Assembly (NCBI RefSeq): GCF_032362555.1
Contig: NC_083506.1
Coordinates: 11,331,501-11,395,500 of the forward strand
Source of the DNA: Amyelois transitella
Taxonomy: Eukaryota; Arthropoda; Insecta; Lepidoptera; Pyralidae
Direction of reading: 5' to 3'
DNA length: 64,000 nt
Part shown: positions 24,501 through 47,518 of the stretch, piece after piece
How the letters are laid out: every line of letters begins with the position of its first letter
How positions within the stretch are numbered: position 1 is the stretch's first letter
The notes under the pieces: model-generated
The model's database searches: none
Seen by the model: only the letters and a program-made list of their open reading frames with translations
What the model was told of the DNA's origin: nothing
Made by a program: the position numbers and the translations under genes

Positions 24501-27500
24501 TGCAGCGTGATGTTCTAAAAGTCCAAAAGCCTTCCTCGATAAATGGTCTATTCAACGCAAAAAGAATTTTTCAATTCGTACCAGTAGTTCCTGAGATTAG
24601 CGTGTTCAAACAAACTCTTCAGCTTTATAATATTAATATAGATTATAATATTAGTATAGATTACCCAAAACCAGATACATAATTGCATTAATTTTCGTTC
24701 AATAACAATGCCCGGTATCAAAATCATTATCACCCTATATGTAGCACATATTTCGTCTATCCCACAAATTTCATTGAGTTGTCTCATGGTGGGACAATTG
24801 GGCGATTTTGCCCCAGAGTTCCATGGGACGTGGGACATTAACAAAAACAGATCAGTTCAGCAGGGCAGATCCCAAAAAGGGCTTATGACTACGATTCAGG
24901 AGTAATGCTTACTTTTATAAATTTAAACGTTTGCCTGTGTGTCTTTCACGTCAAATCTACTGAATCTAACTTCATGAAATTTTGCATACATATAGCGTGG
25001 TGCACTAAGGTATAAATAGGGTACTTTTCACGCATGCGGAGCCGCGGGCAAAAACTTGATTCGGACAAAAGAAAAATGTTCATCGAATGTATTTGTTTGT
25101 ATGGTTTGATTGTCGCCTCTACTACACCCACGCCATAATGTGTCCATATTTTATGTCAACATTGTTTGTGTGTGGGTGACGTCCATTCATATCGTAAGCC
25201 GTATTTGGCTTTGGGAGATATATTTCGTAATTCAATCCTTGAGACTCATAATTTATAGAATATTATGGTCATTGATAGAATGGAATGTTGTTTTATTTCG
25301 AGCAAAATAAAATATTTTTTGCCGAAGAGATTATACTTTTTTCAATCTCAATATATTATTCATCCATCTCGTTCCCATGGATATCGTAAAAGGCGACTAA
25401 AGGATATGCTTATAAACTTAAGATTCCTTTTGTTGGCGATGGGCTAGCAACCTGTCACTATTTGAATCTCAATTCTATCATTAAGCCAAATAGCTGAACG
25501 TGGCCGATTTCAAGACTATTGACTCTGTCTACCCTACAAGGGATTGTAAGCCTATCCCTTATTCGCCTAATACGACATCCATGTGAAAGAAATGGAGCGG
25601 TCCTATTCTTTTTTTGTACTGGTGCCGGGAACTACACGGCACAAAAAAAATAATTAATAGATAGTTATCATTGTATCAACAGGCCATGGAATCAAAACAC
25701 AAAGTGAAAGGTCCAACCGGCTTCGTGACGGAGCCCCGTATGGCTGAACACCGGTGCTTGTGGGACGGCAACTATCCCGAGTGTCCGGAGCGACTCATCA
25801 GCATCATTGAAAGGTGAGGCGTGTCAATAGACTGGCTGGTCTTGTTTTTAACCGCCTTCAAAAATATACATACATTCATACATAAAATCACGCCTCTTTC
25901 CCGGAGGGGTAGGCAGAGACTACCTCTTTCCACTTGCCACGCTCTCTGCATATTTCCTTCGCTTCATCCACATTCATAACTCTCTTCATGCAAGCTCGAC
26001 GGTACGGTTTCGGGTACTTTTGACCTGACCCTTTACCAGGTCCATTTCAAAAATATGTGTGTGCAATAGTGCCATGTGGTTTGCGGCACCATTAGAAGAG
26101 GAAGAATAGGACCACTACATCTTTTTACAATGGATGTCGTGAAAGGCGACTAAGGGATAGGCTTATAAACTTGGGGATTCTTCTTTTAGGCGATGGGCTA
26201 GCATCCTGTCACTTTATATGAATCATTATTAAGGCAAAAAGCAAAACGTGGCCTATCAGTCTTTATAAGACTGTTGGCTCTGTCTACCCCGCAAGGTAGG
26301 TATATGGACGTGATTATAGGTATGTATTTAAAAAATATATATACTCTACGCATTTTGATGAAATTTGATACACGGGTAGAATTCTCCTGATGGCTTTAGT
26401 CTCGGTGGTATCCTCACCTTTCTGGAGAGGAGCCCGTGGTATGCCTTTGACCATGGCTCCTGGATTGGGTGAGTCAGGTTTTTACACAAAGCGACTCCCA
26501 TCTGACCTCCGCAACCTTTGCAGGTGAGCCTAACCCGTATTGGATCCATGGTTACACATACAGTTGACTGAATGTACAGGTTTCCTCACGATGTTTTCCC
26601 TTACCTTAAGATCATCGGTTAGTATTGAGCTAATATACATAACTTTGAAAAGAGTCATTGGTACACAGGCGAGGCGGGATTTGAACCTGTAACTTTTTGC
26701 GCATCACGCATTTCAACCGGGCACCTTACTAATTCGACCACCGACGCTCTGAATAGTAGAACCTACTTTTTATCCCGAAATTCGCACAGGAGTTAATGCT
26801 CACTTGATTAGCTTATAAAAACTATTTCATGTGCCGTGTGGTTCCCGGCACCAGTACAAAAAAGGATAGGACCTCTCCATCTCTTTCCTATGGACGTCGT
26901 AAAAGGCGACTAAGGGATAGGCTTACAAACTTGGGATTCTTTTTTTTAGGCGATGGGCTAGCAACCTGTCACTATTTGAATCTCGATTTTATCATTAAAC
27001 CAAATAGCTGAGCGTGGCCTATCAGTCTTTTCAAGACTGTTGGCTCTGTCTACCCCACAAGGGATATAGACGTGACCAATATGTATGTATGTACTACTTC
27101 ATAATACAGATGCCGAGAACTGAATCTCATCGAGCAATGTCAGGAGTTTGCGCCGCGGGCGGCGACCAAAGAGGAACTGTTGACGCTACACGACCATTCA
27201 GTTTACGAGATGCTGGAGAAGACGCACAATAACCATGATGAGGAATACCTTGAGAGGATCTCGGCGAAGTATGATGCTGTTTATATACACCCGGTGAGTT
27301 TGTTGTATTTTTGTAGGAGAGTTTACAACTGATTTAGCGTTTAGCCGCAGCGAATATAGTACCATTTTCATGCGCGAAGTTAGGGCCACCTACTCGCGCG
27401 AATTAAGCGCGTTTTGCAGGTGACAATAAATAAACGTTTTGGCAAATCAATATGGACCATAGTATAGTACGAAAAATTTCAAGAAGATATTATATATTCA

Positions 27501-30500
27501 GTTGAGAACGCGTGAAGTGACAAAAACAAACAAATAAACTTATTTTTGCATGTATAATATTACTACGTAAGAATTTCCTAAACGCATTTTTGCTTTATGA
27601 TATAAAGTTTTCTATAATTATAGTAGCTGTCCCGGAAAACTTTCTTTTGGCATATAAATAATTTTTAAGTAATTTCTACATACATACATATGATCACGTC
27701 TTTATCCCTTACGGGGTAGACAGAGCCAACAGTCTTGAAAAGACTGATAAACCACGTTCAGCTGTTTGGCTTAATGATAGAATTGAGATTCAAATAGTGA
27801 CGGGTTGCTAGCCCATCGCCTAAAAGAAGAATCCCAAGTTTATAAGCTTATCACTTAGTCGCCTTTTACGACATCCATGGGAACGAGATGGAGTGGTCCT
27901 ATTCTTTTTTGTATTGGTGCCGGGAACCACACGGCACTAAAGTAATTTCTAGTTAAAAAATATGTTAAGGTAGACCACCCTTATCACTAAGGGTGTCTAG
28001 GGTATGAAAAATAGATGTTGCCCGATTCTCAGATTTACTCAATATGCTCACAAAATTTCATGAAAATCGGTCGAGCCGTTCCGTAGGCGTACGGGAACGA
28101 ACATTATGATACGTGAATAGAATAGATCTATTTTCAAAATAGGAAACAAAGTATCACTAATTGACGTCACATCACTTAAATCTAGTTATAACTACTACCG
28201 CTTCCAAAGCGCATGTGTAGAAGAAGCGACGGAACAAACTACACTGCAGCATTTTCATCTGACGTCATTATACAATTGAGAGAATTTTACATAATAAGAT
28301 TTTCTTTTCAGAGCACGCACGAGTTAGCATTGATCGCGGCCGGTTCTACCATAGACATGGTAGACCGCATTGTCTCTGGTCAAGTTCAGAACGGCGCCGC
28401 GTTTGTGCGGCCCCCGGGACACCACGCCATGGCGGCCGAGCCGTGCGGCTACTGCTTCTATAATAACGTCGCTTTGGCGGCGAAACACGCTTTGGATAAA
28501 CATGGCTTGAAGAGGTAGTTATATAATGACATACATACATATGGTCACGTCTATATCCCTTGCGGGGTAGACAGAGCCAACAGTCTTGAAAAGACTGAAT
28601 GACCACGTTCAGCTATTTGGCTTAATGATAGAATTGAGATTCAAATAGTGACAGGTTGCTAGCCCATCGCCTATAAAAGAATCTCAAGTTTGTAAGCCTA
28701 TCCCTTAGTCGCCTATTACGACATCCATGGGAAAGAGATGGAGTGGTCCTATTCTTTTTTGTATTGGTGTCGGGAACCACACGGCACAGTTATATTATGA
28801 ATGAAGAAAATTAAGTTGTTACCTTTTCACCGTGCGGGGTAGATGGAACAAGTACTTATATAGGACTATCCCTTAGTCGCCTTTTACGACACCACGCCAT
28901 GGAAGCCGAGCCGTGCGGCTACTGCTTCTATAATAACGTCGCTTTGGCGGCGAAACACGCTTTGGATAAACGTGGCTTAAAGAGGTAGTTATATTATGAA
29001 TGAAGAAAATTAAGTTGTTACCTTTTCACCGTGCGGGGTAGATGGAGCAAGTATAAAGGACTATTCCTTAGTCGCCTTTTACGACATCCATGAGAAAGAA
29101 ATGATTCCCGGCACCAATAAAAAAATAGAATAAGACCACTTTCTTTCTAATGGATGTCGTAAAAGGCGACTAAGGAATAGTTTTGTAAACTTGGGATTCT
29201 TCTTTAGGCAATGGGCTAGCAACCTGTCACTATTTGAATCAATCAATTACGCCTTACAGCTGGGAACACGTCATTGATCGTGCTGTGTGGTTCCGTATAA
29301 TGATGTAGTCTCAGCCTTATTATATGTATGTATGTTTGTGACTCTGCTTTATTTGTTTAACAATGGCCATTTGTTTCAGGATACTCATAGTGGACTGGGA
29401 CGTTCATCACGGGCAGGCGACGCAACAGATGTTTTATGATGACCCGAGGTAAATAACTATATCCTGCCTCTTTCCCGTAGGTGTAGGCAGAGACCACATT
29501 TTTCCATACATACATAAAGTCACGCCTCTTTTCCGTAGGGATTGGCAGAGTACACATCTTTCCACTTGCCAAGATATATATTCTTTCTTCCAATATAGCG
29601 TGTACCCGATTTTATTCACAGCTTTTGGCTATAAACCTCTCAAGTCCGCTAATAATAAAATAATCGTCTAGGAATTAAAAAGTCGTCGTCCATTAAAAAA
29701 ATGGTTATGCTTTTGCAAAAATCTTTACGTGAATCGAAAGCACGACATTCACCACTACACGGTAGGGGTGGCAAATTAAAAGTTTCTAAGGAACATCTCG
29801 TTACATTTTTTTCGTAACTGCTTAGTAGTTGGAATAAATAAATAAATAGATATATACGGGACAAATAACACAGATTGAGTTAGACTCGAAGTAAGTTCGA
29901 GACTTGTTGTCACGAGATACTAACTCAACGATACTATATTTTATAATAAATACTTAAGTATATAGATAAACATCCAAAACCCAGGCCAATCAGAAAAAGT
30001 TCTTTCCTCATCATGTCCTGGCCGAGATTCGAACCCGGGACCTCCGGTGTTACAGACAAGCGCACTACCGCTACGCCTTAGAGGCTGTCAAACGAAATGT
30101 CAAGACGAAATCAATTTTCCGATATTATTTATCAACAGAGTGGTATACTTCTCCATACATCGCTACGAACACGGTTCCTTCTGGCCGAACCTGCGCCAAT
30201 CTAACTACAACTACATCGGCGCCGGCGCAGGGCGGGGGTACAACTTCAACGTTCCCCTCAACAAGACAGGAATGACGGACCGGGACTATCTCGCCATTTG
30301 GCACCAGCTGCTGTTACCCATGGCTTTTGAGGTGAATCTCGTACATACATACATATGGTCACGTCTATATCCCTTGCGGGGTAGACAGAGCCAACAGTCT
30401 TGAAAAGACTGAATGGCCACGTTCAGCTGTTTGGCTTAATGATAGAATTGAGATTCAAATAGTGACAGGTTGCTAGCCCATCGCCTAAAGAATCCCAAGT

Positions 30501-33500
30501 TTGTAAGCCTATCCCTTAGTCGCCTTTTACGACATCCATGGGAAAGAGATGGAGTGGTCCTATTCTTTTTTTCATTGGTGCCGGGAACCATACGGCATTC
30601 TGAGGTGAATCTCTTTGGAAACAAAAGCTTTTAAAATGGTATGTTTCATACTTAAACAATTCATAAGTGCAATAGTCATCATCTGTAGTTCTAGTAGTAA
30701 CTTTCATGTCTTTAAAAGTTATTTCATGCTATTAATGATAGCTAAGCTAGTGCACTTTGACCAAGTTTTTTTCAATCAAAAAAGAGGTTCTTAATTCATC
30801 CGAATCTCTTTAACTGCCTTGGCACCCATGGCTTTTGAGGTAAGTCTTCATGGAATCAAAAGTGCAATAGTTATCATCAGTAGGTCGTAGTAACTTTCAT
30901 GTCTATAACATTTTCGAAATTATTCTTATAGATACAGGCGCAACTGTTTATGTGCTAAAAATACCTATAAACGAAAACACTAAAAAAACTGTGAATAAAA
31001 AATTATTTCATGCTATTAATGAAAGCTTAGTTAATGCACTTTGATCAAATTTTCTTCAATTAAAAACATACATACATAAAATCACGCCCCTTTCCCGGAG
31101 GGGTAGGCAGAGACTACCTCTTTCCACTTGTCACGATCTAAAAGAGGTTCTTAATTCATCCGAATCTCTTTAACTGAAGTTACTGCCCACCTGCGACAAT
31201 CTTAACTACAACTAAGTACGTCGGCATATTTCAACGTTCCCCTTTAAAAGACTGGAATGATGAACCGGGACTATCCCGCCATTTGGAACCAGCTGCTGAT
31301 ACCCATGGCTTTTGAGGTGAATGTTCATTGAAAATGGAGTGGTTCATACTTAAACAGTTCAAAAGTGAATTAGTCATCATCTGTAGTTCTAGTAGTAATT
31401 TTAATGTTTTTAACATTTACGAAAATTTTCTTATAGATACAGGCGCAACTGTTTGTGTGAAAAAGCTGTGAATAAGTTATGACATGCTTTCAATTATACC
31501 CCATGCACTTTGACTAAGTTTTCTTCAATCAATAAAGGGGTTATTACGAAGGTTATATGATACTCAGGTTTCCCCCAGTACTGTATATGATTTATAAATT
31601 TCTACTTCCTAAATTGTACAAAAGTTTTAATTCTACCCTTGTTTTTTTCTTACAAGTATCAACCGGAGCTGATTCTAATATCAGCGGGTTACGACGCTGC
31701 GATTGGATGTCCCGAGGTATTTCCATCTCTTTCTTACTCACTCACAGTAGATATGTCTGTCTCTTTCAGTTCTCGCCCGAGTTGGTTCTCATCTCGGCCG
31801 GGTACGACGCAGCCTTAGGCGATGAGAAGGTGACATGAGAGTAAATTTTAATAATCAATGCTTTTGTATGTTTTTATGAGTTTTGCCAAGCTTCATGACA
31901 CTCTCATCATTCTCAGCTGATATTTAGGGGGTGCCTTTTGATTTAGACTTTGTATTGATTTGACAAAGTTAAAAAATACCATTATCTACGTTAGATGGTG
32001 TTAATATTATTGCTGCAATCTTTTTTTTTTGTGCTTCTATACCCTTTTTTAGATGCATTTTATTGTGTACATTATCCTCTCTCATGGTGACCGCTTAACT
32101 TAATGCCTGGTGATAATTGCGTTGTCACTGTACGTCTACCAATTTGTATTACATCATATCACAATAACATAACAATAGCTCATACGAAAAAATCCTAAAT
32201 CGATGACATAATTAAATTTTTAATTTGGGCTTTCGCAATTTATTTTTACTACGATTCGTCCACGATTTATAATAGATTTAGAAGATCTATATCTGACAGA
32301 TCTATGCACGTGTGAATTGACGTTCAGTGAAAACGCTGCAGCGTAATTTGCTCCGCCGCTTATTCTACATAGCACTTGGAAGCGGTAGTAGATGTAATTA
32401 GATTTAAGATTTAATCTGGACGTTAATAAGCGATACCAATTGTATTCAATAATGAAAAATCAATTTCCATTTATTGGGTTAATGTGTTAATACCACGTCT
32501 CTCATTGGGCTTGAACCGACCCTGTGATATGACCTCGATTATTAATTTATTAATAAGCGATACCAATAGTATTCAATTTTAAAAATCAATCTTTTTGTGT
32601 GAATGTGTTGATTAAACCACGTCTCTCATTGGGCTTACACCAACCGTGTGATTTGACCTTGATTATTAATCAATTTCGATCAGGGCGAGATGGAAGTGAC
32701 CCCGGCATGTTACGCTACCCTCCTGCACCAGCTGAGGGCGGCGTGCCCGGCCGTGTGCGCGGCGCTGGAGGGCGGCTACTGCCTGCCGTCGCTGGCCGAG
32801 GGCGCCGCCCTGACGCTGCGCACCCTGCTGGGGCACCCGCCGCCTGTTCTGCAGCCCGCCGGGGAGCCCTGCGACCAGTGAGTGTGTCCCCCCCCCCCCT
32901 GACCCACAAGTGAAGTGATGGTTGGTAGTTTGTGTGTTTAACGTCGTCAAAAAGGTGGGATAAAATGTGTTTTGTTGGCAGCAAGTTAATCAAGCGTTAT
33001 CTACTGAAGCAATATTCTTGAAATTTTGTGTATGGATATATAACTTGCTTAGGGATTTGCGATTCTTCCACGCGAACGAAGTCGCGGGCAACAGCTAGTA
33101 ATATTATAAAGCTGAAAAGTTTTTTTGTTTGAACGCGCTAATCTCAGAAACTGCTGGTTCGAATTGAACTTTTTTTGTATTGAATAGACCATTTATCGAG
33201 GAAGGCTTTAGGCTATATAACATGCCGTCGCTGGCGGAGGGCGCCGCCCTGACGCAGCCCGCCGGGGAGCCCTGCGACCAGTGAGTGTGGCTGTTCTGAG
33301 TGTGTCTCGTTGGTTGTTAGTTCCCCCTACTTCTGACCCACGGGAGAAGTGATGGGTGGTAGTTTGTGTGTTTTACGTAGACAAAAAGGTGGGATAATAT
33401 GTGTTTTGTTGGCAGTAAAGTTATGCTCTTAATCTGCTCCCTCAACTCTGACACTCGCTTTTAAGTTATTACATACATACATATGGTCACGTCTATATCC

Positions 33501-36500
33501 CTTGTGGGGTAGACAGAGCCAACAGTCTTGAAAAGACTGATTACCCACGTTCAGCTATTTGGCTTAATGATAGAATTGAGATCCAAATAGTGACAGGTTG
33601 CTAGCCCATCGCCTAACAAAGAATCCCAAGTTTGTAAGCCTATCTTTTAGTCGCCTTTAACGACATCCATGAGAAAGAGATGGAGTGATCCTATTTTTTT
33701 TTTGTACTGGCGCCGGGAACCACACGGCATAATTCTTCCGATAACCATACGACAAAAAGCCTGTAATAATAATGTTTTCAACAGAATATTAAAGTCGTTT
33801 TTTCTTTTCTTTTTTACAGAATTATAGACGCGATCCTAAACTGCATATACGTACACAAGCCATATTGGAAATGTTATAACTACCAACCAACGTATAGCAT
33901 AGACGCAACAGTGCCAAACGTGTGCGATGGAAAGAAACAGAAGCATACGGTAACGCTGAGGTGGGAGGGAGACGAAACGAGGCCGGAGACTTTCGCTACG
34001 AGGAACTGTTATCCGCTGCAAGATGATAAAACTAAACGAGAGATTGCGCAACGGCTCAATCATTTGAGAATAGGTGATACTATCCTTCTAATTAATATAT
34101 TTCCTATAAATGCGAAAGTTTTTGAGTATGTCAGTATGGATGTTTGTTACTCTTTCACGCAAAAACTACTGAACCGATTACGATGAAATTTAGTATGTAG
34201 GTAGCTGAAAACCCAGAATAACATATTGGCTACTTTTTATCCCGGAGTTCCTGCGGGATTGATTCCACGCGGACGAAGTCGCGAGCGGCCTCTAGTATTT
34301 CTTAATTGTTAGTAATAGTTTTTTAAGAGCGTCGGTGGTCGAATTGGTAAGGTGCTAGGTTTGAATGCGTGTGGCACAAAAAGGCACAGGTTCGAATCCC
34401 ATCTCGGCCATGTACCTATGACTATTTTCAAAGTTATGTACATTAGTTTGAATGCTAACCAATGCTCTTACCTGCACATTCAGGCAACTGTATGTGTAAC
34501 CATGATCGATCCAATACGGGTTAGGTTCCCCTGCTAAGGTTGCGGAGGTCAGATGGGTGTCTGGTGAAAATGCTGCAGTGTAGTTTGTTCCGCCGCTTCG
34601 TCTACACATGCGCTTTGGAAGCGGTAGTAGATATAATTAGATAAGTTATATGACGTCAATAAGTGATACCTTGTATCCAATTTTGAAAATAAATCTATTC
34701 TATTCAATATGTTTATAATCCGTTATCCGTTCTTTTATAGAATTTCTTCTCCAACATCCATCGTTGAATTATATTAATACATACATACATATGGTCACGT
34801 CTATATCCCATGCGGGGTAGACAGAGCCAACAGTCTTGAAGGCTAAATGGTCACGTTCAGCTATTTGGCTTAATGATAGAATTGATATTTAAATAGTGAC
34901 AGGTTGCTAGCCCATCGCCTAAAAGAAGAACCCCAAGTTTATAAGCCTATCCCTAAGTCGCCTTTTACGACATCCATGGGAAAGAGATGGAGTGGTCCTA
35001 TTCTTTTTTGTATTGGTGCCGGGAACCACACGGCACTGCCGGGAACCACATATATGTGTATTAATACGTATACTATTATATGTACGATATTTAACACAAA
35101 TTCTTCTGTTACAGTGACGGAACTGCGGTCTCCGCGGCACGCAGTCGGCTACGTGTACGATGAGGCCATGTTGAAGCACAAGAACATTTGTGAACCGTAA
35201 GTTGGCATGTTCAAAATTCATCATTCAAGTTACCCAAACTGATTTAAGAATACATTACAATACATATAAAATAATGTGAAAGAAGATGTAGTTACAGAAA
35301 TAGAAAAGTACCCTTTTCTAAGTTTTGTTAAGATGGTTCGGTCATGTGGAGAGGATGAATGAAAGCAGGTTGACTAAGCAGATATACATGGAGAGTGTGG
35401 AGGGAAAGGTCGGGGTGGGAGGACCTAGACGAACGTATCTTGATCAAATTAAGGACGTCCTGGTGAAGGGTCAGGTCAAAAGTACCCGAAATCGCCGAGC
35501 TTGCATGAAGAGAGTTATGAATGTGGATTAAGCGAAAGAAGTATGCAGAGATCGTGGCAAGTGGAAAGAGGTAGTCTCTGCCTACCCCTTCGGGAAAGAG
35601 GCGTGATTTTATGTATGTATGTACATATAAAAGAAGTATGTGTCGTGTGGTTGCCGGCTCTGTAGAATAGGACCACTCCCATATAAATATTTCACATGGA
35701 AGCCGTGAAAGGCTTTATCGCTTACGGGGTAGATGGAGCCAACTGTGTTGCAAAGACTAATGCCTGTATGGCTTAATGGTGGAATTGAGACTCAAATAGT
35801 GACAGCTTGCTAGCCTATCACTTAAATAAAAAGAATCCCAAGTTTATAAACTTATCCCTTAGTCGCCTCTTAAGACATCCATGTGAAATAAAGGTAGTGG
35901 TCCTATCGTAAAACGCTGGGAACTTACAGGACTATTTCTCTTCCTCGATCTTGTTAAAAAAAAACCGATTTGGTTTAGTTCTAAAATTTATTTACACAAT
36001 TGCAGTGACCACGTGGAATGTCCGGAGCGTATAATGAGGATACATGAGAGACACCGCGATTTCGGACTATTGTCTCGCCTGCATATGGTGGACGGCGCAC
36101 GCGCATCCGATGAACAGATACTGGCTGTGCACTCGAAGAGGCATCTGAACAAGTATTATTTTAGAGCTGTAATTGTTTTGTACATAGTTAAAATACTAGA
36201 TGATTCCACTATGAAATGTGTCTGTCTGTCGGGTTTATTACGTTTTATAGTCACGTCTGTCCCTTGCGGGGTTGACAGAGCCAACAGTCGAAAAAAGGCC
36301 ACGTTCAGCTGTGTGGCTTTATGATGAAATTGAGATTAGAATAGTGACATGTTACTAAACTATCACCTACAAGAGGAACCCCAATTTTATAAGCCTATCC
36401 CTAGGTCGCCTATTACGACATACGTGGGAAAAATATAGAGTGGTTCTATTCTCAAGTTCCGGAAACCACACGGCGCGGTGAGGATGTAATCGGTACAAAC

Positions 36501-39500
36501 ATCAGCAGGTAGAAGACATTTACACAACTCCGTATCGTAAATCGCTATTTTTATGATTCAAGCACGTCAATTTTTGGCAAATATATTATGTCTCTCAATT
36601 CCCAATATCAATTTTCCTAAAATAATCTTATCTTGTTCTTTCATAGGCTCAAAGAGTTGGCGACGACCAAACTGCGTGATCTGAACAACCAGAAAGAAGC
36701 ATATGACTCTGTCTACTTCCACCCTGACTCGTTGGAAAGTGCGGCCATTGCTGCCGGCTGTGTCATACAGGTATATGTTTAAATATAATCATACTAGAGG
36801 CCGCCCGCAACTTCGTCCGCGTGGAATCAATCCCGCGGGAACTCCGGGATAAAAAGTAGTATGTTATTCTGGGTCTTCAGCTAAATACTAAATTTCATCG
36901 TAATCGGTTTTTGCGTGAAAGAGGTTACTCTTTAATATAGGTCAATATGGATGTTTGTTAAAACATCCATATTGACTCACAAACTTTCGCAATTATAATA
37001 TAAGTAGGATTTACTGTCTAGTACCTGGGTGACAGAGAGGTGCTCGATGTTTTTTGTTGACAGTTTCAAATGACATGAGAATAGGCACACAATGTGAGAT
37101 ATTGCAACGTGATAAAGCAATCACGGTAAACACCATCAGTTATGTGCCCGCGGTGTCGACATTTTGTAACCTAGTAATCATTTTACTCCACATAAACTGT
37201 ACACCTATACCTATATCCATCGGTTTTCAGCTCATTCAAAGCATTTTCTTTTATCAACACATTCCAACTAATATTATATATGCGAAAGTAAGTTTATTTC
37301 TTACCTCTTCATGGGTTATCTAATAATTAAGAGTTTGGTGAAGGACATAATACCTGTCATCCCGGTAAAAACAACAGTTCCCGCGGGATTTGCGACAACC
37401 CTTATTATTTTGTTACATACATACATACATACATAAAATCACGCCTCTTTCCCGGGTAGGCAGAGACTACCTCTTTCCACTTATTATTTTGTTGATGGCG
37501 CTAAATTCTGCAGCTTTCCGCGGTCGAAGCTGCGGGTAAAGTCTTTTAATATTTCTTAAGTCTATGGTCTTATCAAATAGCAGACACCCATCAACACGCT
37601 ACTCTTTGCTTACAAATCTATACTAATATTATAAAGCTGAAGAGTTTGTTTTGTTTGTTTGTTTGTTTGTTTGTTTAAACGCGCTAATCTCAGAAACTAC
37701 TGAACCGATTTGAATAATTCTTTCACTGTTAGATAGTTTATTTATCGAGGAAGGCTATAGGCTACATTTTATCCCGGATTTCCTACGGGAAACGTCAACA
37801 ATGCAGGTGAAAGTTGAATGAGTCGGCCATCTGCGAGCTTTCCACGCGAACGCTGCGCAAACCAACAAAGATATAGTAAAACAATGTACTAAAGATGTGA
37901 AGTACTAATTTTTTGCCACAAAAAAGTCCGCGAGAGCATATATCTATCTCTTAAGGTTTACTTACAATAACCACTTTTATGTTCATTTTTAAAGATTATT
38001 TTTTGATTATAAACATTAGTTATTTTGAAACCAATTTTCTTTAATTCAGTATTAATCCTTATCCAAATAAATATGTTTATTACTTTCGGCTTTTCATGTA
38101 GGTAGACTAAAATTGCCATTTACAATATATAAATCAGACGAATAGGTTTTGAGATATAGTCGTTATAAGCAATTTGCAGCGAAACATTTAATACGGCAAA
38201 CCAGCGTTCTTTCTAATACGCGTGACCGCCTGAAAAATAAATATGATGCCCAAAATAACTATTCCACGCGGACGAAGTCGCGGGCTCAGCTAGTATACAA
38301 TATAACTAATCTTTTAAAAATATTGACAACATAAATTTTTTTTATTAAAAAAAAAGAAAGTCTATGGTCTCTCGTACCTTTACTGGTATCTTTTCTCTTT
38401 CGTGTTTTAAAGCGAAATTTCGTAACCTCAGATGGTAGACGCGGTCCTTACCAACGTGGTAGGCAGCGGCGTTTGTGTGGTGAGACCTCCCGGTCACCAC
38501 GCGGACGACGACTGCCCCAGTGGGTTCTGCCTGCTGAACTCGGCCGTCGCGGCGGCCGCGCACGCCGTGCAGGCCCACGGGGTGGACAGAGTCCTGTTGC
38601 TCGACTGGGACGTGCATCACGGCAACGGCTCGCAGAGGATCACGTATGCTGATAATAAGGTATTGCGTATTGAACGCACAGTGTTATAATCTTAAGGATT
38701 AAAATGGAATGAGCATTCTCTGATATATTGTTTTCACACAAATTAAATATGACGTGAAAAACTACACAGATTGAGTCTCGAAGTAAGTTCGAAACTTGTG
38801 TAACGAGATACTAGCTCAACGATATTATATTTTATGATAAATGATAAATACTTATATACCTATCCTTACTCGCCTTTTACGAAATAATTCGTTAATACTC
38901 TATGTATATCCTTTTCACAGATACTGTACATGTCAATCCACCGTTACGACCACGGCTCTTTCTTCCCGCACTCCACCGACGCCGACCACACCGCGGTGGG
39001 GGAGGGGAAAGGGGAGGGGTACAATGTCAACGTGCCTTGGAACAAGGTACTTCTTTTGCTTATCTTTTATCTCTCTTTCCCTCATGGCTTTAGTCCCGGT
39101 GTGACGAGCACACTAGAGAGGAGGCCGGGGTATGACTTTGACCATATGGATCCTGGATTGGGTGAGTCAGGCTTTTACACGAAGCGACTCCCATTTGTCT
39201 TCCGCAATACATACATACATACTAACATAAAATCACGCCTCTTTCCCGGAGGGTAGGCAGAGACTACCTCTTTCCATTTGCCACGATCTCTGCATACTTC
39301 CTTTGCTTCATCCACATTCATAACTCTCTTCATGCAAGCTCGGCAATTTCGGGTACTCTTGACCTGACCAGGACTTCCGGCGGTCTTCCGCAATCTTTGC
39401 AGATAAACCTGTATATTGGATCGATCATAGTTACACGACCAGCTAATATTTTTTTTGTTTTTTTGTTTTATTTCAGCGTGGCATGGGCGACACGGAATAC

Positions 39501-41918
39501 CTAGCTGCGTTCACGCAAGTGATACTGCCGATCGCGTACGAATATAACCCCGAATTGGTCATCGTTTCAGCCGGATTCGACGCTTGTGTGGGTGACCCGC
39601 TAGGAGGTAAGTTTGAGTTAGCGGCTATCAAATTATATCAATACTAGCTTTTATCCGCAGCTGCGCCTGCGTGCATTTAGCGCTATCAAATACACAATAC
39701 AATTTACAAAAACTATTAAAAAGATTAATATTCAAAAGCATTACATTTTTGGCGCCTTTACTTCCATGCTCCTAAGAAAAATCCTTATTTTGATTAAAAC
39801 ATTTTGTTACATTTTCTTTCATTTTAGAAAAAGAATAGGACCACTCCAACTCTTTTCCATGGATTTCGTAAACGGCGACTAAAGGATAGGCTTATAAACT
39901 TGGGATTCTTTTAAGCGATGGGCTAGCAACCAGTCACTATTTGTATCTCAATTCTATTTTAAAGCCAAATAATTGAACTTGGCCTTTTAATCTTTTCGAG
40001 ACTGTTGGTTCTGTCTACCCAGCAAGGGATGTAGACGTGATTATATGTATGTACGAGTATGTATGTACATTTTGTTACAGGTTGCAAAGTATCGCCGGAA
40101 TGCTACGGCCGTATGACCCAACTCCTACACGGGTTGGCGGGCGGCAGACTGGTCCTATGTCTCGAAGGTGGCTACAATGTCACTAGTATATCCTACGCCA
40201 TGACAATGTGCACCAAAGCCTTACTCGGTGACCCCATCGGACACCACTACGAACAAAGAACAGCCCCACATTGGACCGCGATAGAATCAATCAATAATGT
40301 TATCACAACACACAAAAAATACTGGAAAAATCTCAAGTTCCAACTAGCGTTGCCCATAGAGAATGTTCTAGAAGAACCTTTGCCATCCAGAGGGTTAAAA
40401 GTTGATGAGAAGTCAAGTATGCCATTGGCAAATGCAGACTCCAAGATTGAAAGCCATTTGGACGGTTCGTTAGAGAGCAATATGGCGGATTTGGCCATAG
40501 ATAAACCTATGGATAGAATTGACTGTGATGGCGATCGAAATTCGAATGTGAAAGAAAAATCAGAAGACAAGTCTGTAAATATGAGCGTAGACAAACCAGT
40601 CTGCTCTGATGGTATTCACTGCGGTACAGACGACGAGGATGAAAGTCCAAATGTAAAGGAGAACATAGACAAAAAATCTGCAAATACGAGCATAGATAAA
40701 CCAGCATGCTCGGGCGGTCATTGTGGGATCGGCGAGAAGGATAAAAGAAAAGACAATGAACCGTCAAACAGCAAGCAGTTAGACAAAGTTGAACCGTCAA
40801 GTATTAAAGTATGTAGTTCCAAAGACAAAATTGGTGCCATAGACACAAGTGGTCCTTCTTCAAGTACAGAGAAGACTACATTAGTCGATTATTTAGCTGA
40901 GAACATGCAAGCTATAGTGAATGGTGAAATGTTTGCTGTGATTCCGTTGGCTTGGTGCCCTCATTTGGAGACTATGTATGCCATTCCGGCCTCGGTGAAG
41001 TTTGAACAGGGAGTCAAATGCGTGGAGTGTGAAGAGACTGTTGAGAATTGGGTGTGTCTGCACTGTTATGTTGTAAGTTGCATTTTGTTTATTTCATCTC
41101 TTGATTACTGATTAGTGACCATAGATGACCTATTGCCGTGTGGTTCCCGGCACCAATAGAAAAAAGAATAGGACCACTCCATCCCTTTCTCATGGATGTC
41201 GTAAAAATCGACTAAGGGGTAGGCTTATAAACATAAGATTCTTATTTTAGGCGATGGGCTTGCAACCTGTAACTATTTGAATATCAATACTATCATTAAG
41301 CCAAACAGCTAAACGTGGCCAATTGGTATTTTCGAGACTGTTGGCTCTTTCTACCCCGCAAAGGAATATAGACGTGATTATATGTATGTATGTATGTATG
41401 TCATCTCTTATTATTAGTGATCATAAGTGACCTATTGCATGTGTAGATGTGGGTTATGAAGATCGAAATCTGTCAAATGGTTACTTTTATTCTGGTAAAA
41501 GATTTCACAAAATGTTCATTTTCACAAGATATTTGGTCAATTTGGTACTTTGATAAGATACTGCTTTAGCCCTTAAGTAACCTCCTACATCCACAGGAAG
41601 TAGTAAGGACACGAATACCCCTTCATTTATCGATTTAAAAAAGGAGGTGGTTCCCAATTCATCAGTATGTATTTCATATTTAATCATACTTTTCAGACGG
41701 CATGCGGTCGCAGTATAAACGGGCACATGCAATCCCATTACAGAACGACGCAACACCCTCTAGTTTTATCGCTAATTGACCTGTCAGTTTGGTGCAACGA
41801 GTGTGACGCATACGTCGACAACGCACTGCTATACGACGCAAAGAACAACGCACATTTGTGCAAGTTCGGCGAGGAGATGCCTTGGTGCTACAAAACTGAT
41901 ACTATTCATATGCAATAA
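21512..41918 (+). CDS. HDAC6: Histone deacetylase 6 (two deacetylase domains plus ZnF-UBP)
   Basis: Class IIb deacetylase for tubulin, cortactin and other cytoplasmic proteins; its ZnF binds free ubiquitin C termini. Exons: 21512-21514, 21585-21719, 23509-23598, 25683-25813, 27110-27293, 28312-28514, 29380-29448, 30139-30331, 31657-31716 or 31770-31829, 32684-32877, 33820-34073, 35115-35196, 36006-36152, 36647-36770, 38432-38659, 38921-39046, 39477-39606, 40081-41072, 41697-41918. Phases are consistent; 1188 residues (human 1215). Domain 1 (about 95-415) has [22 protein letters not shown] and LEGGYC. Domain 2 (about 510-860) has [34 protein letters not shown] and LEGGYN. Both therefore keep the His pair, three zinc ligands and catalytic Tyr. 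ZnF-UBP (about 1045-1188) has [21 protein letters not shown] and NGHMQSH. The N-terminal 75 residues are basic and Ser/Pro-rich. Exon 1 codes only the ATG. An AATAAA overlaps the stop codon (41914-41919). Confidence 0.95.
22098..22328 (+). mobile_element. Family B retroposon copy (diverged)
   Basis: Old copy in HDAC6 intron 2; faces the minus copy at 22517-22786, forming an inverted pair. Confidence 0.75.
22517..22786 (-). mobile_element. Family B retroposon copy
   Basis: Full-length minus copy in HDAC6 intron 2, flanked by CATACATACATA at its 3' end. Confidence 0.85.
24406..24660 (-). mobile_element. Helitron-like element in HDAC6 intron 3
   Basis: Minus orientation: starts with TTAGCTGTGCCCGCGACTTCG and ends with the TATAATATTAGTATAGAT terminus, duplicated once. 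Confidence 0.68.
26069..26327 (+). mobile_element. Family B retroposon copy
   Basis: Full-length copy in HDAC6 intron 4. Confidence 0.85.
26395..26755 (-). mobile_element. tRNA-derived SINE, family C
   Basis: Minus-strand copy of a second tRNA-derived family. The 5' end reads GAGCGTCGGTGGTCGAATTAGTAAGGTGC, followed by a B-box-like region with GGTTCAAATCCCGCC and a body including CAGATGGGAGTCGC and CCAATCCAGGAGCC. The plus copy at 34329-34600 has GGTTCGAATCCC. Partial copies: 39078-39200 (-) and 62659-62900 (-); fragments near 17988-18120 and 49135-49215. Confidence 0.75.
26829..27094 (+). mobile_element. Family B retroposon copy
   Basis: Full-length copy whose (TATG)n tail ends 15 bp before HDAC6 exon 5. 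The polypyrimidine/branch region of that acceptor is therefore partly retroposon-derived. Confidence 0.85.
27677..27938 (-). mobile_element. Family B retroposon copy with target-site duplication
   Basis: Full-length, flanked by the direct repeat AAGTAATTTCTA. It was inserted into an older repeat (27620-28120) whose halves resemble 13675-13855. Confidence 0.88.
28530..28787 (-). mobile_element. Family B retroposon copy
   Basis: Inserted 16 bp after the HDAC6 exon 6 donor, with a target-site duplication near AGTTATATAATGA. The duplicated exon 6 copy at 28892 lacks it, so it arrived after the duplication. Confidence 0.87.
28892..28984 (+). pseudogene. Partial copy of HDAC6 exon 6
   Basis: Repeats 28422-28514 (from CCACGCCATGG to AAGAG|GTAGTT) with few changes. 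The frame is open and the donor intact, but the 5' half and acceptor are missing. About 100 bp of following intron is also duplicated (to about 29095). Confidence 0.9.
30300..31500 (+). repeat. Three local copies of HDAC6 exon 8 end plus intron
   Basis: The exon 8 end CCCATGGCTTTTGAG with a following GT donor occurs at 30331 (real), 30839 (donor GTAAGT) and 31316 (donor GTGAAT). The intron after each copy shares blocks (AGTGCAATAGTCATCATC-like; GATACAGGCGCAACTGTTT after copies 2 and 3). The third copy keeps ~120 bp of exon (31195-31316) but has an in-frame break (AACTAAGTACG), a deletion and no acceptor. Confidence 0.85.
30343..30597 (-). mobile_element. Family B retroposon copy straddling HDAC6 exon 8 donor
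   Basis: Flanked by the direct repeat TGAGGTGAATCTC, which contains the exon 8 end and its GT donor (first copy 30329-30341; second about 30599-30611). Confidence 0.87.
31657..31716 (+). CDS. HDAC6: HDAC6 alternative exon 9a (Glu gatekeeper version)
   Basis: 60-nt, phase 0-0 exon encoding [20 protein letters not shown]. Acceptor TTTTTTTCTTACAAG and donor GAG|GTATTT both look usable. It contains the third zinc ligand (Asp of SAGYD). Its last codon GAG (31714-31716) lies seven residues after that Asp and would precede exon 10's [10 protein letters not shown]. Confidence 0.85.
31770..31829 (+). CDS. HDAC6: HDAC6 alternative exon 9b (Lys gatekeeper version)
   Basis: 60-nt, phase 0-0 exon encoding [20 protein letters not shown], with acceptor CTGTCTCTTTCAG and donor AAG|GTGACA. 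It is homologous to exon 9a and 53 bp downstream. Last codon AAG (31827-31829) gives Lys at +7 from the zinc-ligand Asp, like vertebrate HDAC6 domain 1 (GDPKGEM in human). Confidence 0.88.
33066..33220 (+). mobile_element. Helitron-like end-to-start junction
   Basis: A 3' end (CACGCGAACGAAGTCGCGGGCAACAGCTAG, to 33101) abuts a new 5' start (TAATATTATAAAGCTGAAAAG). The second element runs to 33220 and breaks off at the duplicated HDAC6 exon 10 piece. Confidence 0.7.
33221..33425 (+). pseudogene. Partial copy of HDAC6 exon 10 and its donor intron
   Basis: Copies 32793-33000 (from TGCCGTCGCTGGC through GACCA|GTGAGTGTG and AAAAAGGTGGGATAA) but lacks about 36 bp of the exon (CTGCGCACC...GTTCTG). 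It begins exactly where a Helitron-like 5' end (33103-33220) stops. Confidence 0.88.
33470..33729 (-). mobile_element. Family B retroposon copy
   Basis: Full-length minus copy in HDAC6 intron 10, upstream of exon 11. Confidence 0.85.
34102..34295 (+). mobile_element. Short Helitron-like element after HDAC6 exon 11
   Basis: Closely similar to 1513-1709. It begins about 28 bp after the exon 11 donor and ends CTCTAG|T. Confidence 0.7.
34329..34600 (+). mobile_element. SINE family C copy
   Basis: tRNA-like head GTCGGTGGTCGAATTGGTAA and B box GGTTCGAATCCC, then the family C body. In HDAC6 intron 11. Confidence 0.75.
34778..35037 (-). mobile_element. Family B retroposon copy
   Basis: Full-length minus copy; its final GCCGGGAACCACA is repeated once at the 5' junction (35039-35050). 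It lies about 65 bp before HDAC6 exon 12. Confidence 0.85.
35300..35632 (+). mobile_element. 3' end of a non-LTR retrotransposon (LINE)
   Basis: In-frame stretch [17 protein letters not shown], then [14 protein letters not shown] and [16 protein letters not shown], the C-terminal tail typical of lepidopteran endonuclease/reverse-transcriptase LINE proteins. It is followed by the 3' UTR ending TATGTATGTATG. No RT domain remains. Shorter 5'-truncated 3' ends of the same family: 196-415, 10545-10605, 10810-10990, 13385-13455, 25868-26045, 29508-29590, 31067-31140, 37414-37487, 39207-39380, 51189-51310, 58472-58626 (all -); 20490-20605 and 53352-53440 (+). Confidence 0.8.
35638..35935. mobile_element. 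Head-to-head family B fragments
   Basis: A + fragment (35638-35711, TGTCGTGTGGTTGCCGG...) joins directly to a minus copy (35712-35930), making a diverged inverted repeat in HDAC6 intron 12. Confidence 0.7.
36243..36478 (-). mobile_element. Family B retroposon copy
   Basis: Diverged minus copy about 90 bp after the HDAC6 exon 13 donor. Confidence 0.8.
36794..37011 (-). mobile_element. Short Helitron-like element
   Basis: Minus copy starting CTAGAGGCCGCCCGCAAC. It contains a small internal fold-back (about 36944-36976: ATATGGATGTTTGTTAAAACATCCATAT). Confidence 0.7.
37617..38293 (+). mobile_element. Helitron-like element, ~678 bp, in HDAC6 intron 14
   Basis: Nearly the same sequence and length as 553-1230, with A before and T after. 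Differences include extra TTTG units near the 5' end and a few indels. Confidence 0.72.
39826..40065 (+). mobile_element. Family B retroposon copy
   Basis: 5'-truncated copy ending about 15 bp before HDAC6 exon 18, so the acceptor region is retroposon-flanked. Confidence 0.82.
40440..40750 (+). repeat. HDAC6: 35-residue internal repeat in HDAC6 linker
   Basis: Within exon 18, [20 protein letters not shown]...DESP (from 40545) and [20 protein letters not shown] (from 40650) are tandem 105-nt units. A weaker third ([12 protein letters not shown]) precedes them. The region is acidic/Ser/Lys-rich and sits between domain 2 and the ZnF, where mammalian HDAC6 has its SE14 tetradecapeptide repeats. 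Confidence 0.75.
41132..41400 (+). mobile_element. Family B retroposon copy
   Basis: Full-length copy in the last HDAC6 intron. Confidence 0.85.
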
Positions 41919-45029: not shown

Positions 45030-47518
45030 ATGTTTTTGAAAACGGAACTTTTAAAAGCCATCTCATTCAAAACCCCAGTGAAATTACCTGTGTCGTATTG
45101 GATTTTGGTGGTGTTGCGGTTTGTGCTGACACTTCTGCCACAACGAGGATATATCCACCCCGATGAGTTCTTTCAGAATGTTGAGATTATTGCAGGTATA
45201 TTTACAAAAATACTTACTGGATTATGTATAGGAATAAACTTGGAAGACAGCTTGATGTTTATACTTGATTTAAAGCGGACTCCTGGTTTCGAAACTTAAC
45301 GGCTGAAGGTATAACTGACTAAGAACACACAAAGATGAAGAGAGAGCGTTTACATGCTATTTCCCTTACATATTTTTAATGTATTAAGTGATAAGAATAA
45401 TTTGTAGTTTTGTAAGTTCAAAACTAAGTTAACTATGTACCTACCTAGTATTAATTCATCAATAACTTATTTAAATTCTGTTATTTACAGGTGATATTCT
45501 CAATGTGGATGTTTCAAAAACATGGGAGTTCAACCCAAAGTTTCCAATCAGAAATATTCTTGTACCAAAAATGATATTAGGGCCACCAATCCACTTCATC
45601 CGCCTCGCCAACCCCTACAGTATGTACTATTTCAACATAGATCTCAAAACTCCTTACTATTTGCTGGTCATACCTAGACTTTTTATCTGTCTCTTGTCTC
45701 TCATTAATGACTATTGTCTATACCAAATATGTGTACTCTATGGTCAAAATTTCAGAAGTCGTTTAAAAATATTTGCCAGTTCCTATGTAGTCTTTGTGTA
45801 CTGTTGTAGAAGTTTCTCAAACTCTTTCGAAATGATATTCTTCTCACTCCTACTTTTATTGGTTGCCCAAAGCATGGCAAAGACTGATAAAATAATTTAT
45901 CATGATGAGTTTCTTACGGAGAAGTACCATCAGGCGTCATCACCAGTAGAGAAAGTTAAGTTATTCAAATTGAAAACTCATTTGCCCCAGCATTCTTTGA
46001 ATCATGTCATTATACTAGCCACTTTAGTAGTTGTGGGGATATTTAACCGTCCTACCTTTGTTGGTTACGGTATTCCACCAGTATTCTTCTGGCTCCACCG
46101 AGGCTTAGGTTCCAAGGTGGTGGGATTTCGAGATTTTCATTATAGAATCTTCATGTTTATACTTTGTGGAGTGCCCACTGTGCTACTGTTTATCATAGCT
46201 GACTCTGTGTACTACGGGTACTTGACCATGGCCGATGTGGAGTCTCTCAAACTCTCGTGGGATAATTGGGTTGTGACACCTTTGAACTTCCTGAGATACA
46301 ACTTGGACTCGAGAAATCTGAAGCAGCACGGCCTCCATCCGTGGTGGTTGCATTTGGTGGTGAATGTGCCACTTCTTTTCAATGTGTTGGGGATTTTAGC
46401 CTTTGGCACATTGGCTAAGCACGCCTACAGGTAAGCATTTAAGAATAGAAAGAATGAAATTATTAGTTGTTGGCAAGTATTAAAATATATTTTACGATGG
46501 AAGACCAGCATCGTGGTTTCTACTACAGATAGAGTTAATAAATTCTTGTAGCTGAAGTAACTTTATCTGCAGTAACTTTATAGATAGTCTTATTATGTTT
46601 TTGCTTATGCCTTTTTCATTTAATTTAGCATTGTATTGGAATACTTCTGAAAAAAACAGTTTAATTTACAGATTCATTCGAGGCCAATACAGCAAACTGC
46701 CAAGGATCCAAAGCATCACCGGTCTCATGCTGCTGTCCCTCATCATTCCGGTTAGTCTCCTGTCTCTTTTCCCGCACCAGGAGGCGCGCTTCATCATACC
46801 TGTATTGGTTCCACTGGTATACCTTTTCGGTAGTCATCTCCACCCTAATGAAGGCGACGGGCCCACTTCGAGAAAGCTCAAGAAAACATTTCGTTACAGC
46901 TGGTACATCTTAAATATTCTGTTCACAATATTTTTCGGCTTCGTCCATCAAGGCGGCATTTATCCATTCTCGCGCAGCCTTTACAGGGACATAAAGAGCG
47001 TGTACGGCATACATACCCACGTGATAACGACGCACAGTTACAGCATTCCAACTTATTTGCTCCAATTAGAAAGTACCACGACGGTGTTCAGAGATCAAAA
47101 GACGGGTCACAAGTACCGCTTGGCGCCCAGCACGTTCCTTTACATGTACGGTTCACTCCCCATCGAAGACTTGTTCACTAAAATAGATGACGTCCTTAGC
47201 AACGCAGAGATGTTGCTGCATAAAAATAAGAAGAAATACAGGTTTTACGTGACGTCACCGTGCTCGTTAGAACAGAAGATTCGAGACGCCGCAAGGAAAT
47301 ATCATTACATAGATCTAGTTGAAGACGCTTCGTACTACCCGCATTTTTGTACGGAAGCATTCCCGAAGTTTCCAAGTGCTCGCGACCAATCTTGTATAGA
47401 ATATAGTTTAAGCAAAAATGAATCTAATGTCTTAGATCTGAATATACTACAAAGGCTCGCGTGTTTTTTTAATAAGTTTTGTCTTAGGATATATAAAGTA
47501 AAGCTAGCAGCGAAATAG
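45030..47518 (+). CDS. PIGZ: GPI mannosyltransferase 4 (PIG-Z / SMP3)
   Basis: ER multi-pass GT22-family enzyme that adds the fourth, side-branch mannose to GPI precursors from dolichol-phosphate-mannose. Exons 45030-45195, 45491-46430, 46672-47518 (stop TAG); 650 residues, somewhat longer than human (579) or yeast (~516) members. The signature luminal motif HPDEFF is at residues 43-48 (GYIHPDEFFQ), followed by IIAGDILNVD and the ...WEFNPKFPIRN stretch typical of PIG-Z/SMP3 rather than PIG-B, ALG9 or ALG12. Many hydrophobic segments follow, plus FNRPTFVGYGIPP, PLNFLRYNLD and PHQEARFIIPVLVPLV (the HQEARFL-type block of GT22 enzymes). The start is the only upstream in-frame ATG before HPDE. All junctions are GT-AG with matching phases. 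A possible polyA signal is at 47951-47956. Confidence 0.92.

Follow-up and report, generated by a model that had tools for sequence, protein, structure and literature searches.

The HDAC6 gene of Amyelois transitella contains two homologous 60-nt exons, here called A and B, that lie 53 nt apart and encode opposite charges at the gatekeeper residue of catalytic domain 1. We consider it probable that an old tandem duplication within this domain gave rise to alternative exons that switch the gatekeeper charge and are kept apart mainly by geometry. From the sequence of the window, meaning the whole 64,000-nt stretch of DNA that was analysed, we infer that both exons would be used, each to the exclusion of the other and by way of branch points in the spacer, and that the choice of substrate would change with them. 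In the proposed mechanism, the duplicated exons would be spliced as alternatives, each supplying both the strand that carries zinc ligand number three and the loop closing with the gatekeeper residue. The Lys usual for HDAC6 domain 1 would come from exon B, and from exon A a Glu, the charge found in HDAC10. Branch points just 20-28 nt from the exon A donor would be too close for pairing with it, so that A would not be joined to B. The outcome would be two HDAC6 proteins having like domain 1 tunnels and opposite rim charge: the Lys form would prefer acetyl-lysine with a free carboxylate, and the Glu form would disfavour such substrates while tolerating cationic acetylated ones.

One HDAC6 gene with two copies of a domain 1 exon

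The window (G000:C2:11331501-11395500, in a genome of 327 Mb and 33 contigs) holds a single HDAC6 gene, located on the + strand. Profile matches indicate the typical succession of two deacetylase domains (PF00850) and a zf-UBP domain (PF02148), all on one strand. The relevant features are as follows.

25686..25813, + strand: domain 1 coding exon with the L1 loop (donor, frame, gap-free L1 alignment to HDAC6 CD1); an ATG is taken as the exon start, and further 5' sequence is possible
27110..27293, + strand: domain 1 coding exon (frame, CD1 alignment)
28312..28514, + strand: domain 1 coding exon with RPPGHH and a GY aligned with the GY of human CD1
29380..29448, + strand: domain 1 coding exon with the DWDVHHG motif
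30139..30331, + strand: domain 1 coding exon 5' of the pair (exon 8 of the original prediction), donor GAG/GTGAAT
31657..31716, + strand: putative alternative exon A, gatekeeper Glu (splice sites, frame, alignment)
31717..31769, + strand: 53-nt spacer with branch-point-like motifs and a pyrimidine tract
31770..31829, + strand: putative alternative exon B, gatekeeper Lys (splice sites, frame, alignment)
32684..32877, + strand: domain 1 coding exon 3' of the pair (exon 10 of the original prediction), LEGGY
38429..40223, + strand: HDAC6 domain 2, PF00850 stretches 38429-38671, 38915-39046, 39459-39608 and 40077-40223; these are profile match ends and differ from exon ends
41697..41825, + strand: HDAC6 zf-UBP, PF02148 profile positions 19-61 of 63 (G000:C2:11373197-11373325)

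Joining the five exons from 25686-25813 to 30139-30331 with A or B and with 32684-32877 yields a domain 1 of 343 residues that covers positions 2-297 of the 298-position deacetylase profile. The assembled domain scored 285.5 bits with exon A and 289.9 bits with exon B, placing the A form 4.4 bits below the B form. A search against solved structures with the A form returned zebrafish and human HDAC6 CD1 as top matches (5eef_A, 370.4 bits), and the scores for single-domain CD1 chains (368.6-372.7 bits) exceeded those for CD2 chains (at most 323.1) and HDAC10 (at most 325.7). Domain 2 retains its catalytic motifs and has a Leu gatekeeper (GDPLGG). Further 3' on the + strand, positions 45475-47518 contain two long open frames (319 and 320 aa) of a membrane-like protein, which we take to resemble a GPI mannosyltransferase.

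The exon pair itself is real with high confidence. As originally predicted, two phase-0 exons of 60 nt occupy 31657-31716 (acceptor cttacaag, donor GTATTT) and 31770-31829 (acceptor tctttcag, donor GTGACA), and either one joins in frame to 30139-30331 and 32684-32877. The reading frame through domain 1 stays open in all four combinations, with A, with B, with both or with none, so that joint inclusion would indeed add 20 residues in frame. The two exons are tandem homologues of equal length and phase, with 13 of 20 residues identical. Their BLOSUM62 score is 70, as compared to 21 (against B) and 7 (against A) for the next best among 147 open segments of the form AG-60 nt-GT on both strands of the window, which served as the chance background. 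An assembly duplication was considered as the source of the pair and rejected, since a haplotype artefact would not fit 40% nucleotide divergence within 113 bp. The splice sites had been described as good, and AG and GT do flank both exons, but the donors were slightly overrated: position +5 is a pyrimidine in each (T in exon A, C in exon B), the other six domain 1 donors having G, G, T, A, A and G.

Both copies have probably been under long-term selection

Comparing the two exons pointed to an old and constrained duplication. They are identical at 36 of 60 nucleotides, and 10 of the 13 shared residues use different codons. Changes concentrate at the third codon position (13 of 20, versus 7 of 20 and 4 of 20 at the other two). 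By Nei-Gojobori counting, differences affect 13 of 15.75 synonymous versus 11 of 44.25 nonsynonymous sites (Fisher P 1.3e-4, computed from rounded counts); divergence at synonymous sites has reached saturation, and dN amounts to 0.30. We also simulated an ancestor giving rise to one neutral and one constrained copy at five branch lengths, keeping those runs that ended with 22-26 nucleotide differences. At least 13 identical residues without a stop were retained in 0.29, 0.12, 0.06, 0 and 0% of the runs, although only ~160 and 4 runs qualified at the last two branch lengths. When constraint acted on both copies, the same outcome was reached in 18-82% of runs at an omega of 0.05 or 0.1, wherever runs occurred, and in 1-14% at an omega of 0.2. 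Long-term neutrality of either copy is rejected by these simulations with P about 0.003 or less, and A and B were therefore probably both under selection through most of their history. We regard the pair as an old tandem duplication that is constrained and probably functional. Searching viral and genome contig collections for relatives of the A form (tblastn) gave 3 and 61 pattern matches, respectively, none of which was a relative.

The HDAC6 gene of this genome has a history of small local duplications, which provide an internal control. Partial copies of neighbouring HDAC6 exons are present at 28888-28999 (96% identity), at 31230-31322 (90%) and, in pieces, at 33223-33289 (90-100%). The copy at 31230-31322 derives from the tail of exon 30139-30331, shows 9 differences over 87 compared bases and carries an in-frame TAA. 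The copy at 28888-28999 has no stop in its own frame and lacks the 5' half of its exon; a PF00850 match at 28887-28994 corresponds to this decayed copy inside HDAC6. Unselected copies in the region can apparently break early, and A and B are intact at 60% identity. Of note, partial decaying exon copies within HDAC6's own introns (one more at 30824-30855) in some cases retain a donor-like GT. A separate 242-nt repeat, SINE-like by its look, occurs in three copies, at 28519-28760 (reference), 30333-30574 (70%) and 33461-33702 (92%), and two of these start, by the limits that the tool set, within ~5 nt 3' of the HDAC6 exon ends 28514 and 30331.

The same local duplications bear on the foremost alternative, namely that only one exon is now used and that the other survives as a relic, either preserved by chance or fallen out of use recently. 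Local duplication of HDAC6 pieces is frequent and the copies decay (28888-28999, 31230-31322, 33223-33289), and neither A nor B has a G at donor +5, both as a relic would lead one to expect. Against this stands the rejection of long-term neutrality, as well as the retention in both exons of the zinc ligand, the frame and the splice sites after synonymous changes had become saturated. Recent silencing of either exon would leave no trace in one genome. On balance, we hold a relic to be unlikely and favour two exons that would both be in use.

The copies encode opposite charges at the gatekeeper position

The last codon of each exon lies at +7 from the zinc-ligand Asp, as had been proposed, and encodes Glu in exon A and Lys in exon B. 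In alignments to solved structures, the counterpart of this residue is Lys in zebrafish and human CD1 and Leu in CD2, which bears out its identification as the gatekeeper of HDAC6 domain 1. Two nearby positions also differ from CD1: the +5 residue is Cys in exon A and Asp in HDAC6 CD1, and the +6 residue is Glu in exon B and Pro in CD1. Opposite the CD1 constriction (human F105 and Y225, with the numbering inferred from the two changes that separate chain 6wyo from wild type), the alignment shows Tyr at both positions. The role attributed to the gatekeeper agrees with passages of PMC5454378, in which K330 of HDAC6 CD1 dictates the preference for C-terminal acetyl-lysine and the equivalent residue of HDAC10 is a Glu, E274. 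In the same passages, the E274L change lowers the activity of HDAC10 toward N8-acetylspermidine 20-fold and raises its lysine deacetylase activity about 100-fold; removal of the L1 helix makes HDAC10 bifunctional and costs the zebrafish enzyme 15-fold of its polyamine activity (PMC5454378).

Splicing had been predicted to toggle domain 1 between an HDAC6-like Lys pocket and an HDAC10-like Glu pocket. The Lys and the Glu are indeed at this position, but calling the pocket HDAC10-like is too strong in view of the L1 loop and the alignment scores. The L1 loop aligns without gaps to HDAC6 CD1, and the HDAC10 insertion is therefore absent, so that the Glu form should have a tunnel of the CD1 type and a negatively charged rim. 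A query of 43 residues gave HDAC10 scores of 38.6 bits for A and 38.8 for B, and HDAC6 CD1 (5eef) scores of 45.1 and 45.3; the score against CD2 (28oi) was 37.8 bits with A and 41.8 with B. Relative to B, exon A has therefore lost likeness to CD2 and gained none to HDAC10. The scores do not support an origin of exon A from HDAC10, to which they place it no closer than to HDAC6 CD1. The predicted Glu form is best regarded as an HDAC6 domain whose gatekeeper resembles that of HDAC10, rather than as an HDAC10, and by analogy its polyamine activity may be weak without the L1 helix of HDAC10. A functional switch by splicing is plausible, and a change of substrate would be its expected consequence.

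To place the pair within the deacetylase family, we surveyed the 23 PF00850 matches of the genome, which form six loci, with 8 matches in the HDAC6 locus. The other five loci we take, by motifs known to us, to be HDAC1-, HDAC3-, HDAC4-, HDAC8- and HDAC11-like. Their gatekeeper is Leu except for a His in the HDAC8-like locus, and in none is it Glu. This HDAC8-like locus (L009, G000:C21:4130437-4133691) reads GADALAGDPHGG around its His gatekeeper. At +5, an Asp is present in the HDAC1-, HDAC3-, HDAC8- and HDAC11-like loci as well as in HDAC6 domain 2, and a His in the HDAC4-like locus. No separate HDAC10 locus was found among the genome's PF00850 matches, and a missed or unassembled one is possible. 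One speculative and rather doubtful extension is that, where HDAC10 is apparently missing, splicing would turn HDAC6 domain 1 from C-terminal acetyl-lysine to acetylated polyamines or other cationic small molecules. If so, a single gene, controlled by tissue or stage, would serve both kinds of class IIb substrate.

The survey also informs a second, quite improbable alternative, in which exon A yields a domain 1 of little or no activity, perhaps owing to its Cys at +5, and tunes total activity or a scaffold function, with catalysis left to domain 2. Cys indeed replaces the Asp that is found at +5 in the HDAC1-, HDAC3-, HDAC8- and HDAC11-like loci and domain 2, and domain 2 has its motifs and a Leu gatekeeper. 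Yet the His in the HDAC4-like locus shows that Asp is not universal at this position, and the domain 1 residues that we take to be catalytic are intact in both forms. Moreover, the charge change affects +7, a residue with a proven effect on specificity in the relevant passages of PMC5454378. An altered substrate preference of the Glu form is the reading we retain.

A short spacer is likely to prevent joint inclusion

Because A and B are both multiples of three, their joint inclusion keeps the frame, and frame-based decay of the transcript would pose no barrier. The likely barrier is geometric. The spacer contains the motifs CTTAC, CTCAC and CTCAC, whose adenines are 20, 24 and 28 nt from the exon A donor and 33, 29 and 25 nt, respectively, from the spacer end. 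Passages of PMC7969005 and PMC5740500 give a steric threshold of ~50 nt between donor and branch point, and report potential steric interference in 57 of 629 human clusters. In human OGDH exons 4a/4b, the branch points are 25-41 nt from the donor, as described in part of PMC7969005.

For intron sizes in this genome, we used 208 exon matches collected genome-wide (myosin head 79, kinesin 74, ABC membrane 55), a small sample of three families with mostly approximate lengths. An intron was estimated wherever neighbouring matches continue the profile, resulting in 91 pairs with a smallest estimated intron of 85 nt and a smallest raw gap of 82 nt; as the pairing rule measures every myosin cluster copy up to the shared exon that follows, a handful of these pairs do not represent a single intron. 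Restricting the analysis to 144 of the myosin and kinesin matches left 74 pairs, and the minimum did not change. The pairing rule excluded three pairs that overlap (L026, L027 and the nested C4). In L026 and L027, splice sites delimit introns of 77 and 74 nt, respectively, with lengths counted by eye. Within single matches, the excess over the profile was 36-42 nt in four stop-free kinesin cases, which are taken as coding insertions, and 81-459 nt in five others. The smallest of the 93 introns measured or estimated is thus 74 nt, in line with the original prediction that the 53-nt spacer is near or below the minimum intron size. Given a spacer shorter than any of these 93 introns and branch-point-like motifs 20-28 nt from the donor, steric exclusion of A together with B is likely, the branch points being predicted from the sequence. 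Most of the weight for exclusion is carried by the branch-point distance rather than by the gap in intron size. That transcripts would contain both A and B, as an ordinary insertion of 20 residues, is highly improbable: the frame would be open, but splicing would need a 53-nt intron with its branch point 20-28 nt from the donor in a sample whose smallest intron is 74 nt, and the zinc-ligand strand would be repeated in the core of the fold.

Implications and comparison with known systems

The gatekeeper of class IIb deacetylases sets the preference for substrate charge, a role known so far through comparisons between enzymes and through point mutants. If splicing naturally switched this residue, one animal would possess a matched enzyme pair. 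To our knowledge, the purpose of HDAC6 domain 1 is still unclear, and such a switch would make its role testable, together with the question of who deacetylates polyamines where an animal lacks HDAC10. Insects commonly have tandem alternative exons, and the gatekeepers were already known; the combination of the two, in HDAC6, appears to be new with respect to the open-access papers listed, and predicted isoforms may be present in annotation databases. No description of the HDAC6 exon pair was found in the titles and abstract openings of open-access papers among the matches listed, and the terms HDAC, deacetylase and CG6170 are absent from the main text of PMC3303723.

The closest known system is HDAC6 CD1 (zebrafish 5eef, human 9k91), which is the top whole-domain match and shares the gap-free L1 loop, the motifs and, with exon B, the Lys, followed in HDAC6 by a second deacetylase domain and zf-UBP as in the present gene. 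The difference is the Glu option offered by a second exon, whereas the aligned zebrafish and human CD1 rows have Lys. With HDAC10, the A form has in common the Glu gatekeeper in a PEG context, a motif documented for HDAC10 in part of PMC11532494. Unlike HDAC10, it lacks the two-residue L1 insertion and the P(E,A)CE helix, an insertion described in passages of PMC5454378; further along, the gene encodes another deacetylase domain with its catalytic motifs as well as a zf-UBP, and the HDAC10 score (325.7) stays below that of CD1 (372.7).

As to the arrangement of the exons, insect muscle myosin heavy chain, a different gene, likewise has tandem alternative exons. In the present genome, four myosin head matches with overlapping profile ranges at G000:C12:10167187-10168555 fit the alternative cluster of insect muscle myosin, their match ends being 141-255 nt apart. 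Vertebrate OGDH exons 4a/4b (PMC7969005) are also tandem homologous exons whose choice alters a functional motif of the enzyme, and their mutual exclusion is imposed by branch points close to the donor. There the intervening stretch measures 118-131 nt in birds and mammals, compared to 53 nt in the HDAC6 pair, and the branch points have been mapped, at 25-41 nt, whereas those of the HDAC6 pair are predicted motifs at 20-28 nt.
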